Source: Meiothermus sp.
GTDB lineage: Bacteria > Deinococcota > Deinococci > Deinococcales > Thermaceae
DNA: 64,000 nucleotides
Direction of reading: 5' to 3'
Assembly (NCBI GenBank): GCA_026004095.1
Contig: BPIL01000015.1
Coordinates: 1 to 64,000 of the forward strand
The notes under the pieces were generated by a model. It made no database searches. It was not told where the DNA came from and was given only the letters and a program-made list of their open reading frames with translations. The translations under genes and the position numbers were made by a program. Shown here in pieces: positions 50,860 to 56,259 of this stretch. The number at the start of each line of letters is the position of its first letter. The stretch's first letter is position 1.

Positions 50860-53800
50860 GCTTCAATCCTCACTCGAGCTTTCGCCCGAGTGCAACGTCG
50901 GACTCGACGATGAACCTCGAGTCCGACTTAAGGTTTCAATCCTCACTCGAGCTTTCGCCCGAGTGCAACCTGCGGGCCTTGCGGGCCCCCAGCGAGGTGG
51001 TCAAGTTTCAATCCTCACTCGAGCTTTCGCCCGAGTGCAACCCTGCTGTACGCCGAGAAGGCCGCCGTGAACATGGTTTCAATCCTCACTCGAGCTTTCG
51101 CCCGAGTGCAACTAGAAGTGGTCAACGGGCAAATAGGCGACGAGGTTTCAATCCTCACTCGAGCTTTCGCCCGAGTGCAACAGTCGGCACTTTTTGCGTT
51201 TATTCTTGCGTTTATATTGTTTCAATCCTCACTCGAGCTTTCGCCCGAGTGCAACGCGGCGGCGCTACTCGCTGGTTGACCGGCTCCATGATCGTTTCAA
51301 TCCTCACTCGAGCTTTCGCCCGAGTGCAACAAGCCGCTGGGCTGCCAAGCCTAAGCCAAGCTGCCGTTTCAATCCTCACTCGAGCTTTCGCCCGAGTGCA
51401 ACGCAGCCTCCTTAGCGGCCACCAATGGCGCAACCGGGTTTCAATCCTCACTCGAGCTTTCGCCCGAGTGCAACCGCTGTCCAGGCCTACGGTAGCGCTC
51501 GACCGGCTCTATGTGGTTTCAATCCTCACTCGAGCTTTCGCCCGAGTGCAACGCCGAAATCACTGTAGAGGGTGAGGGTGAGGCGGTAAGTTTCAATCCT
51601 CACTCGAGCTTTCGCCCGAGTGCAACTATCCAACATAGCGCTACAAAAAACATAGTGTGCAGTTTCAATCCTCACTCGAGCTTTCGCCCGAGTGCAACGC
51701 CGAAATCACTGTAGAGGGTGAGGGTGAGGCGGTAAGTTTCAATCCTCACTCGAGCTTTCGCCCGAGTGCAACTATCCAACATAGCGCTACAAAAAACATA
51801 GTGTGCAGTTTCAATCCTCACTCGAGCTTTCGCCCGAGTGCAACGCCGAAATCACTGTAGAGGGTGAGGGTGAGGCGGTAAGTTTCAATCCTCACTCGAG
51901 CTTTCGCCCGAGTGCAACAATCCGGGGGCAAAACAGGAGGGAAGCATGTACGAGATTGTTTCAATCCTCACTCGAGCTTTCGCCCGAGTGCAACAATCCG
52001 GGGGCAAAACAGGAGGGAAGCATGTACGAGATTGTTTCAATCCTCACTCGAGCTTTCGCCCGAGTGCAACCGTGCCTGTCGCAGGGTGAGATGCGTGGAC
52101 ACCCTGTTCTCTGTTTCAATCCTCACTCGAGCTTTCGCCCGAGTGCAACCTCCAGGACGGCCCGACCGGTGTTGATATCGGCGTTTCAATCCTCACTCGA
52201 GCTTTCGCCCGAGTGCAACGCGGGGTGGGCCGACCTCGTTCTCGCGCAGGACGAGGTTTCAATCCTCACTCGAGCTTTCGCCCGAGTGCAACTGGATTTC
52301 GCCGAGTTTTTGGAAGCACTTGGTTTTGTTTCAATCCTCACTCGAGCTTTCGCCCGAGTGCAACGCCTGGCGCTGCCCTCTCTGGCGGCCCTGGTGGCCT
52401 ACGTTTCAATCCTCACTCGAGCTTTCGCCCGAGTGCAACACAAAACTGCCTTAGAATAATAAAAATCCTAGCTGGTTTCAATCCTCACTCGAGCTTTCGC
52501 CCGAGTGCAACTAGCTTTTTTCAAATCTGGATGAATATCGTAACGTAAGTTTCAATCCTCACTCGAGCTTTCGCCCGAGTGCAACGCCTGGTACAGGGCC
52601 TGGTGCGGGGCCTGGTACAGGTTTCAATCCTCACTCGAGCTTTCGCCCGAGTGCAACTCCCCTCCTGGCCGGGAAGTTCACATGGGCGGCGGTTTCAATC
52701 CTCACTCGAGCTTTCGCCCGAGTGCAACAAAAGCCCCGCTTGTGCGTCTGCACGTCTCGGGGGTTTCAATCCTCACTCGAGCTTTCGCCCGAGTGCAACC
52801 GTTATCGTTAGCTCAGAAACACTAGCGAAATTTCAGGTTTCAATCCTCACTCGAGCTTTCGCCCGAGTGCAACCCTTGGAGGAGTCCCAGGCCAGGCCCA
52901 TGCGGTCAAAGTTTCAATCCTCACTCGAGCTTTCGCCCGAGTGCAACCTCTATGATGCAAATCAAAACATCTGGTACGTTCAGTTTCAATCCTCACTCGA
53001 GCTTTCGCCCGAGTGCAACATGAGTCAAGGGCCGCCGCCCCATCCCCATGGTGGTTTCAATCCTCACTCGAGCTTTCGCCCGAGTGCAACCTATTGGCTA
53101 GTAGTATCTAGCCAGCAAGCCCTTGTTTCAATCCTCACTCGAGCTTTCGCCCGAGTGCAACGCGCCGTGGTGTGCGCGGCGCTGGCCGTAGGAGCAGTTT
53201 CAATCCTCACTCGAGCTTTCGCCCGAGTGCAACGGCCGGGATCGCGAGGTGAACGTGATCACCGGAGTTTCAATCCTCACTCGAGCTTTCGCCCGAGTGC
53301 AACGCGCCCGTCCGCGCATTGATACGCCCTGGGAAAGTTTCAATCCTCACTCGAGCTTTCGCCCGAGTGCAACACCGCACCGACCGCTTCGTCTTCCCGG
53401 CCATCAGGTTTCAATCCTCACTCGAGCTTTCGCCCGAGTGCAACAATCCTGCCAAAAGCACCTGCCGCACAGAACGAAAAGTTTCAATCCTCACTCGAGC
53501 TTTCGCCCGAGTGCAACCCGCCCGCAGGGGATGTCATCCCCCCATCTCCCAAGTTTCAATCCTCACTCGAGCTTTCGCCCGAGTGCAACTGATTTCTGCG
53601 GTGAGCTCGGCATCCGCGTAGCCGAGGTTTCAATCCTCACTCGAGCTTTCGCCCGAGTGCAACCAGCGTTTTCCCAAGAAACGCCAGCCCCACGCCCAGG
53701 TTTCAATCCTCACTCGAGCTTTCGCCCGAGTGCAACAGAAAAGTGCGAACGCCGCCAACGTCAGGACTATGTTTCAATCCTCACTCGAGCTTTCGCCCGA

Positions 53801-54831
53801 GTGCAACGACCAGCACGGCCCAAAAAGTCTTCGATTGCCAGGTTTCAATCCTCACTCGAGCTTTCGCCCGAGTGCAACGAGAGATGCCCCACGCCTGGCT
53901 ACAGAAGAGGAGGAAGTTTCAATCCTCACTCGAGCTTTCGCCCGAGTGCAACGGGGGGGATACTGATGGCGGGGTTTGAGTTGTTCAAGTTTCAATCCTC
54001 ACTCGAGCTTTCGCCCGAGTGCAACCCCCCCGCCCACAGCCCGATTTGCGTCAGGCCCGGCGTTTCAATCCTCACTCGAGCTTTCGCCCGAGTGCAACGG
54101 AATGCTCGAGGCGCGTTGACGATTATCCCGCCAAACGTTTCAATCCTCACTCGAGCTTTCGCCCGAGTGCAACCCGGAGCACCCGCCCCGGCCCCACCAC
54201 TTCCGCCATGTTTCAATCCTCACTCGAGCTTTCGCCCGAGTGCAACGTCACGCTGTTCGAGCTGCGCTCGGCCTCGACGCAGGTTTCAATCCTCACTCGA
54301 GCTTTCGCCCGAGTGCAACGTGAGTTACGCCGAGGAGGGGCGCCCGACGGTTACCGTTTCAATCCTCACTCGAGCTTTCGCCCGAGTGCAACTTTTCGCC
54401 ATCGAGCAATCAGCCTGGACAGCCAAAGTTTCAATCCTCACTCGAGCTTTCGCCCGAGTGCAACCCTGCGGCGAGGTTGGTGCCGTCGCGGGTGATTTTG
54501 TTTCAATCCTCACTCGAGCTTTCGCCCGAGTGCAACCCCCCCGCCCACAGCCCGATTTGCGTCAGGCCCGGCGTTTCAATCCTCACTCGAGCTTTCGCCC
54601 GAGTGCAACGGAATGCTCGAGGCGCGTTGACGATTATCCCGCCAAACGTTTCAATCCTCACTCGAGCTTTCGCCCGAGTGCAACACGCTGCATGGTGGGG
54701 CCAGCGCAAGCGGGGCCAGAGTGTTTCAATCCTCACTCGAGCTTTCGCCCGAGTGCAACTGGCTCCGCTGGGCTACCAGTGGCAGGCTGAGGGGGTTTCA
54801 ATCCTCACTCGAGCTTTCGCCCGAGTGCAAC
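50860..54831 (-). CRISPR. CRISPR array: 55 repeats of 37 nt, 54 spacers
   Basis: The repeat (plus strand) begins GTTTCAATCC and ends GAGTGCAAC, with an internal stem CACTCG/CGAGTG around an XhoI-type CTCGAG. Spacers are about 32-39 nt. Read on the minus strand the repeat ends in ATTGAAAC, the 5' handle of type I-B/III crRNAs, so the array is transcribed right to left. The left-most repeat (50860-50896) has one change (GCTTC for GTTTC), as expected of the old, leader-distal end. Spacer sequences at 51553-52033 and 54026-54647 are duplicated. Long ORFs across the array in the track are artefacts. No cas gene lies in the window. Confidence 0.98.
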
Positions 54832-55040
54832 GGCCTCATTCTAGCGTGCGTGCAGGACGGGGTTCAACAGGCCGTTTGCGCGAACCCCCCCAAAAAGGCT
54901 TCCGACGCGGGGTGGGGGAAGGTGAAGGGAAAGCAGGTTTTCAATGTCCCCTGGCCGATTTCTCGGCTTGCGCGAACCCCCCTGGGTTTTGGCACCTGCT
55001 TGGGGTTCGCGCATTCTACCAGATATGCGGGGCCAGTTGC
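54832..55040 (-). promoter_or_regulatory. CRISPR leader
   Basis: This 209-nt gene-free stretch lies at the leader side of the array. The sequence TTGCGCGAACCCCC occurs at 54876-54889 and again at 54968-54981, and its core is found inverted at 55002-55013 (GGGGTTCGCGCA). Another TAGAAT box lies at 55013-55018 (minus strand). Such repeated motifs are candidates for binding sites of adaptation or regulatory proteins. Confidence 0.7.
54838..54867 (-). promoter_or_regulatory. Probable CRISPR array promoter
   Basis: On the minus strand TTGAAC (54862-54867), an 18-nt spacer and TAGAAT (54838-54843) lie directly before the first repeat. Transcription would start at the leader-proximal repeat. Confidence 0.6.
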
Positions 55041-55727
55041 TTAGCGGAACGCAAAGGGGTTGAAGCGGGTGTCGCGGTCGTAATAGTCCTCGTTCTCGGC
55101 GCGCTTCAGGAAGCCCACCACCGCATAGGTAAGGGGTGTAAACAGTACCTCTATGCCAACCTTAAAGATGTAGTTCGAAACAAACACTGTCCAGAGCAGG
55201 CTGTTGTCCCAGACTCCATAAAAGGCCACCAGCAGGAAAATGGCGGTGTCCAGGCCCTGTCCTACCAGGGTAGAACCGATGGTGCGCAGGGCCAAAAAGC
55301 GCCCTTGGGTAGCCACTTTGAGCCGGGCCAGAATATAGCTATTGGCAAACTCGCCCACCCAGTAGGCCACCAGGCTGGCCAGCACGATGCGCGGCACCAG
55401 ACCCAGGATGGTAGAGAAGGCCTCGGCCGATTTTTGACTGAACTCGTCGGTGGGCGTGGGCAGCGCGCTCACCAGGCCAAAGGTGAGGGCGGAAAGCAGT
55501 AGTAGGAAGAAACCAGTCCAGATCACCCGGCGGCTTCTTTTGTAGCCGTAAACCTCGGTGAGCACATCGCCAAAGATGTAGGCCAGGGGGAATAACAGGG
55601 TGCCCCCGTCAAAGGTAAAAGGGCCAAAAAGCACCACCTTGGTGGAGGCGATGTTGGAGACCACCAACACCACTACGAAAAGGGCTGTGATGAGGTCGAG
55701 ATAACGGTAGCTTTTCATACGGCTCAT
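55041..55727 (-). CDS. Queuosine precursor transporter (YhhQ/VUT family)
   Basis: The 228-residue membrane protein has about six helices and the family features VSNIASTKVVLFGPFTFDGGTLLFPLAYIFGDVLTEVYGYKRSR and IGSTLVGQGLDTAIFLLVAF. It imports queuosine precursors such as preQ1 or preQ0. queA at 11.6 kb uses the imported base after it is inserted into tRNA. The start is ATG 55727, one base after the hpt stop codon; the longer track ORF overlaps hpt. It is coupled to hpt. Confidence 0.9.
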   Translation of the reverse strand: MSRMKSYRYLDLITALFVVVLVVSNIASTKVVLFGPFTFDGGTLLFPLAYIFGDVLTEVYGYKRSRRVIWTGFFLLLLSALTFGLVSALPTPTDEFSQKSAEAFSTILGLVPRIVLASLVAYWVGEFANSYILARLKVATQGRFLALRTIGSTLVGQGLDTAIFLLVAFYGVWDNSLLWTVFVSNYIFKVGIEVLFTPLTYAVVGFLKRAENEDYYDRDTRFNPFAFR

Positions 55728-55728
55728 G

Positions 55729-56259
55729 CTATGCCTGTGAGGTGATGAAGGGTAGGTTGCGGTCAAACTGGCTACGGTCGAGACCATAGCCATACACGAA
55801 AGCATCTTCGATTTCAAAGCCCAGGTAATGGATGGGCACTTCAATCTGACGGCGGGAAGGTTTGGAGAGCAAAGCGGCAATTTTGAGCGAGGCGGGCTGG
55901 CGGGCTTCCAGCATTCGCAGCAGGTAGTTGATGGTGATGCCGGTGTCCACGATGTCCTCAACCACAATTACATGCCGGCCCGCAATCGGAAGGCGCAGGT
56001 CTTTAATAAGCTCCACCTCGCCGCTGGTTTTCTGGCTGTTGCCGTACGACGAAACCGCCAGGAAGTCCAGGGTGAGGGGCATGTCAATAGCCCGCACCAG
56101 ATCGGCCATAAAGATAAAAGCGCCGTTTAGAACGCAAATTAGGTGGGGTTCCTGGCCCTGGTAGTCATGCCTTATTTGTTCGCCCAGCTCGCGTATGCGC
56201 CTGGCGATCTGCGACTCGCTTATCTGTACCTTGCCGTTGCCGGGTCGAAAGACGTCCAC
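55729..56259 (-). CDS. hpt: Hypoxanthine phosphoribosyltransferase
   Basis: The 176-residue enzyme salvages hypoxanthine (and guanine) to IMP/GMP. It has the PRPP motif VIVVEDIVDTGITINYLL, the active-site loop in SSYGNSQKTSGEV and the base-recognition end VYGYGLDRSQFDRNLPFI. The start is a GTG at 56259, with TAGAAT 6 nt upstream, i.e. a leaderless mRNA whose promoter lies inside the 3' end of the pseudouridine synthase gene. A downstream Met start would remove part of the first helix. Confidence 0.94.
   Translation of the reverse strand: MDVFRPGNGKVQISESQIARRIRELGEQIRHDYQGQEPHLICVLNGAFIFMADLVRAIDMPLTLDFLAVSSYGNSQKTSGEVELIKDLRLPIAGRHVIVVEDIVDTGITINYLLRMLEARQPASLKIAALLSKPSRRQIEVPIHYLGFEIEDAFVYGYGLDRSQFDRNLPFITSQA

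Follow-up and report, generated by a model that had tools for sequence, protein, structure and literature searches.

A CRISPR leader of Meiothermus sp., located in the 64,000-nt stretch of DNA analysed in the current work (the window), was found to contain one 8-9-letter word, GGTTCGCG(C), in three uses, i.e. an inverted copy (R) and two direct copies (F1 and F2), whose positions relative to each other and to the first repeat are kept in leaders of relatives and of other phyla. Judged from its sequence, this leader is of the type I-C class, and its three motif sites are probably docking sites for the Cas4-Cas1-Cas2 integrase, combined with a promoter that would fire at the leader-repeat junction.

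The leader, its three sites and its array

The array is read on the minus strand, because of the location of its degenerate terminal repeat and because its repeats match the Rfam family CRISPR-DR9 on that strand; this match, which is below the gathering score, and one further match at chance level were all that the Rfam scan returned. The leader (Table 1) is positioned at the array end opposite to the degenerate repeat, and is kept among same-repeat arrays at unrelated loci while the flanks differ, both being general characteristics of CRISPR leaders. Its G+C content is 62.6%, compared to 62.9% for the window, and the leader thus lacks the A/T-richness that is usual, though not universal, for such sequences; this was not taken as an exclusion, because position and conservation identify the leader. 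In the window the leader follows a Vut_1 gene, not cas2, and in two relatives this gene likewise adjoins the orthologous array.

Table 1 Features of the CRISPR locus (positions in the window; distances in the remarks are relative to the leader-repeat junction unless stated otherwise)
Feature	Sequence	Position	Strand	Remarks
CRISPR array	GTTGCACTCGGGCGAAAGCTCGAGTGAGGATTGAAAC (repeat)	50860..54831	-	55 repeats; degenerate terminal repeat at 50860 represents the leader-distal end
CRISPR leader		54832..55013	-	182 bp; homology between arrays at differing sites starts at R; conservation of upstream flank 0.41
-10-like element	TAGAAT	54838..54843	-	-12 to -7; transcription predicted to start at the junction
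-35-like element	TTGAAC	54862..54867	-	-36 to -31; poorly conserved over the divergent set
F2 site, direct copy of F1	GGGGTTCGCGCA	54877..54888	-	-57 to -46; core conserved 0.95
E element	TTGAAAAC	54937..54944	-	-113 to -106; conservation 0.93
F1 site	GGGGTTCGCGCA	54969..54980	-	-149 to -138; 33 bp from R; core conserved 0.98
R site, inverted copy	TGCGCGAACCCC	55002..55013	-	-182 to -171; core conservation 0.98 (18 divergent leaders)
Vut_1 (putative vitamin uptake transporter) gene		55041..55967	-	stop 28 bp upstream of R

The sequence-only reading had described a motif present twice in direct orientation, 92 nt apart, with its core once inverted, all within 140 nt. This description was confirmed: TTGCGCGAACCCCC is present on the plus strand at 54876-54889 and, 92 nt further, at 54968-54981, while its 12-nt core is inverted at 55002-55013, the three sites spanning 138 nt (read in the direction of the array, the motif is GGGGTTCGCGCA(A)). 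Exact copies of TGCGCGAACCCC number three in the 2.77-Mb assembly, all of them located at R, F1 and F2. When two mismatches are allowed, 3 sites are found in the window alone against 1.33 expected, which is not significant, and the significance of the motif therefore rests on exactness, clustering and conservation. A further element, E, is situated 35-42 bp after F1 in relatives, a few leaders having a degenerate copy or none that could be found; its sequence is similar to the 3' end of the repeat (ATTGAAAC).

The promoter that had been proposed alongside the motif, TTGAAC-18-TAGAAT, is likewise an exact match, placed on the minus strand (54867..54838) and directed into the array; by consensus scan it is the sole promoter-like site between 54700 and 55200, with 0.1 expected in shuffles. 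A sigma-type promoter at this location would start the pre-crRNA at about the first repeat.

In the window the R and F1 arms, separated by 21 nt, match each other as an inverted repeat over all 12 bp, and a hairpin formed by them, either in the leader RNA or in extruded DNA, would represent an attenuator, terminator or insulator. This explanation is disfavoured to the point of being very improbable, since covariation between the arms is not above that of shuffles, changes in one arm being mostly unmatched in the other, the folding energy is ordinary (z = -0.96) and a terminator scan found none; in addition, the predicted start is downstream of both arms, and the third copy, F2, would be left unexplained.

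Within the window array five spacers are duplicated (one of them three times), at 51553-52070 in the distal part and at 54026-54647 near the leader, indicating internal repeat-spacer duplications. The own assembly, which is 84% complete, contains no Cas8c and only a sub-cut-off match to Cas1c; these genes may be lost from the draft, or the window array may be an orphan. A separate cas locus of the same genome (contig C11, L077, about 97-109 kb) encodes Cas6, a Cas3-type helicase, Cas4, Cas1, Cas2 and a free-standing WYL protein, with Cas1 scoring best to type I-D.

Conservation within the order and in other phyla

A BLAST search with leader and repeat yielded matches in 24 of 50 Thermaceae genomes, a few of these being weak or to the repeat only, and an order-level search recovered the R/F1 pair also in other families, where the examined cases are leaders followed by arrays. 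Across the Thermaceae and the other families of the order the spacing between R and F1 is 33 bp (32-34 in a few leaders, by a 1-bp indel), that between F1 and F2 is 88-93, and that between F2 and the end of the first repeat is 93-96, F2 being located about 57 bp from the junction in relatives' leaders. The best-conserved 9-mers in a set of 18 divergent leaders are the cores of R, F1 and F2; next to the values given in Table 1 for these cores, for E and for the upstream flank, the repeat reached 0.80 and the -35/-10 hexamers 0.55, these values being uncorrected for phylogeny. The promoter hexamers are at background conservation, whereas the motif is near-invariant.

The sequence-only reading had pointed to other leaders with the same repeat, in this genome and in relatives, as the place where the motif should recur. 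In the 2.77-Mb assembly searched there is no second array with the GTTGCACTCGGGCGAAAGCTCGAGTGAGGATTGAAAC repeat. Leaders of relatives do carry the motif, in register across the Thermaceae, and so do leaders of other families and phyla; the lack of conservation that was named as a refutation was thus not observed. Exact GGGGTTCGCGCAA sites in the 50 genomes are mostly in leaders, and the remaining ones inspected are few and look mostly intragenic; a general regulon for the motif was rejected on this basis.

Seven dyad matches were obtained among viral contigs. One of these, on an IMG/VR contig (L160), is a real leader that precedes a different repeat and displays identical geometry; the other six are associated with neither an F2 nor an array, and the phage collection gave no match. 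On the same IMG/VR contig (L160:216-2199, L165) a TnpB/Cas12f-like ORF adjoins this leader type and the different-repeat array. A search with the IMG/VR leader led to the I-C locus of Nitratidesulfovibrio vulgaris, at its cas2 end, and the sequence after cas2 was read in 15 plasmid-borne cas1-cas2 loci (14 of type I-C and one of type I-D), among which the Tistrella leader is outside the stretch read and the Leptolinea leader is incomplete because the record ends within it.

The R/F1 pair at 32-33 bp together with F2 at -55 to -58 is present in Nitratidesulfovibrio, Acidisoma (with one mismatch in F2), Geminicoccaceae and both Deinococcus loci, in all cases after cas2 and in type I-C. Rhizobium, Zymomonas and Paenibacillus keep the R/F1 pair without a clear F2; F2 is kept in Treponema. 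In Parabacteroides (Bacteroidota) a word-free search retrieved ATGCGAAT / TTTCGCAC / ATTCGCAT in the same layout, with F2 at -55, and 0 of 200 mononucleotide shuffles were as good, shuffle p-values being limited to 200-300 such shuffles. A similar dyad in the Picosynechococcus I-D leader is statistically weak, and in two Streptomyces I-C leaders the pattern was not found, including by word-free search.

Association with the type I-C module and with array length

The leader adjoins cas2 of a cas4-cas1c-cas2 module in genomes G009 and G028 and in T. thermophilus SG0.5, and is present in 21 of the 22 genomes with Cas1c above the cut-off as opposed to 3 of the 28 others (uncorrected for phylogeny). 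In G009 (L078:1-19501) a combined type I-C and type III-B cas operon is situated between two divergent leader copies, its type I-C part encoding a 1078-aa Cas3 (L078:13313-16549) in which an N-terminal WYL/WCX regulator-like region is fused to HD and helicase domains. Two divergent leader copies about 18-19 kb apart are also present in G005, G013, G016 and G017, the intervening cas content of which was only partly read. In G001 (C2, L108) all four elements (R, F1, E and F2) are present in a leader downstream of which no repeat was found.

Truncated or degraded leaders are followed by arrays of 4, 2, 1, 1 and 1 repeats, compared to 1-80 repeats (median 27) for 29 arrays with full leaders (p = 4e-4, with two masked arrays omitted and the grouping made by hand after the counts had been seen). 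At the orthologous Vut_1 site, intact leaders are associated with 55 repeats in the window and 35 in G009, while in G021, whose leader has lost F2 and the promoter, the array consists of 4 repeats. The short arrays may reflect a need for the leader, or merely joint decay. In G005 (C53, L117) the leader has lost exactly 92 bp and the array consists of two repeats; judged from the sequence, this loss is what recombination between F1 and F2, as direct copies, would produce.

Spacer integration versus transcription control

In the docking explanation, a spacer-integration complex (Cas1-Cas2, probably with Cas4) would engage the first repeat, and F2, about five helical turns upstream, would contact a Cas1 or Cas2 lobe, as is presumed for the anchoring site of type I-E leaders. 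The R-33-F1 pair, 140-180 bp upstream, would fold back onto this complex, aided by HU rather than IHF, and the folded complex would steer integration to the leader-repeat junction.

In the E. coli I-E leader the integrase anchoring site, which is a short motif, precedes the junction by about 50-60 bp, with an IHF site between this motif and the repeat, while to our knowledge such a leader has no R/F1-like pair. F2 is found at a matching position, which fits an integrase-anchoring-like site, although its word differs. A 2021 study by Santiago-Frangos in Curr Biol reportedly described upstream motifs, the phase of which is important, in a subset of I-C, I-E, I-F and II-C leaders, the I-C cases being said to be tied to IHF; compared with these motifs by description rather than by sequence, the leaders in the current work differ in being without an IHF consensus.

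Binding sites for protein, for either transcription control or spacer integration, had been suggested in the sequence-only reading. This proposal is supported by the in-register conservation across phyla, and the evidence favours integration, because conservation of the motif far exceeds that of the promoter hexamers, because its positions are fixed relative to the junction and it co-occurs with Cas1c, and because phyla that share the motif also share the cas module but are unlikely to have a host regulator in common. As the sites are found in several phyla, their binder would be expected to move together with the I-C module, the simplest candidate from these sequence comparisons being Cas1-Cas2, with Cas4. 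Against docking stand the two Streptomyces I-C leaders and the lack of a detectable F2 in Rhizobium and Paenibacillus, the intact leader in an own assembly that is without Cas1c and Cas8c, and the constant position of F2 with respect to both the promoter and the junction. Furthermore, Bacillus halodurans I-C proteins were assayed in vitro on a target in which the leader was limited to 10 bp (PMC6519985), and the distal sites would therefore be dispensable for some activities.

The location of F2, at about -50 from the predicted start and immediately upstream of the -35 element, is also what would be anticipated under the main rival explanation, which we consider unlikely: that the three copies are operators of a transcription factor for pre-crRNA synthesis, with F2 acting by the -35 element and R/F1 as a distal looping pair. 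A candidate binder would then be a host regulator or the WYL-type domain that forms part of Cas3 in the I-C locus of G009, where this Cas3 adjoins the leader, and a -10-like TAnnnT at about the same position in leaders of several families is in agreement with such a role. In Thermus I-C loci, however, the motif is kept although Cas3 lacks the fused domain, as seen from a scan of the G028 Cas3 and, by annotation alone, from the similarly short Cas3 of HB27 (727 aa). The WYL-Cas3 protein was rejected as a general binder, the region being absent from the scanned Thermus I-C Cas3. The poor conservation of the promoter hexamers, compared to a near-invariant motif, also argues against operators, as does the fact that among the exact sites inspected in the 50 genomes the motif was not seen at other promoters; moreover, a host factor common to Deinococcota, Desulfovibrionia and Alphaproteobacteria is unlikely.

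Even less likely is a role of the three copies in binding an architectural protein of the host (HU-like or a different nucleoid protein), by which the leader would be bent for integration without specific Cas contacts. HU has little sequence preference, and this counts against such a protein, as does a word that is nearly invariant in Deinococcota and changed, with the geometry kept, in Bacteroidota. The IHF consensus has 0 exact matches in 53 leaders, and the HU/IHF family (PF00216) is represented by one gene in each of the four near-complete relatives or order members checked, and by two in the own draft. The presence of this one HU-family gene speaks for an architectural role, as does the bending of I-E and I-F leaders by IHF (PMC9456107).

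Docking of the integrase can be compared with several known systems. For the type I-D leaders of cyanobacteria, which are 202-220 bp in length, the part of the literature consulted describes conserved motifs (I-III) that raise spacer uptake (Kieper 2019, via PMC10212523), one being likened to an integrase anchoring site in a host without IHF, and an as yet unidentified bending factor is proposed there for Synechocystis (PMC10212523). The leader described here is alike in its length (~200 bp versus 182 bp), its several conserved motifs and its lack of an IHF consensus, and differs in repeat, in Cas1 subtype and in using one word three times, this comparison being based on the description of the I-D motifs. 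Type I-F leaders also contain inverted-repeat motifs, which Cas2 contacts during integration with the use of IHF (PMC12259127), whereas here no IHF consensus is present and each near-complete genome checked contains one HU-family gene only. In the I-A leader of Sulfolobus, which is without IHF, a distal Csa3a site (-143 to -94) supports acquisition alongside a proximal Cas1 site (PMC9456107). A distal leader motif is common to both systems; the distal factor in Sulfolobus is a CARF regulator (PMC9456107), whereas the minimal I-C loci examined here contain no CARF regulator gene.

It is not settled how Cas1-Cas2 locates the leader-repeat junction in bacteria that have no IHF, and the motif represents a compact, near-invariant candidate signal with fixed spacing, testable in tractable thermophiles such as Thermus thermophilus. 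We tentatively propose that type I-C modules may possess an IHF-independent address code of their own, consisting of one 8-bp word used three times (an inverted pair 33 bp apart and a third copy located about 56 bp upstream of the junction) that would be read by Cas4-Cas1-Cas2 itself; a geometry that is kept while the word diverges between phyla would then mean that leader and integrase co-evolve and move together. The motif could also act as a sequence signature by which type I-C arrays, orphans included, may be found and oriented.
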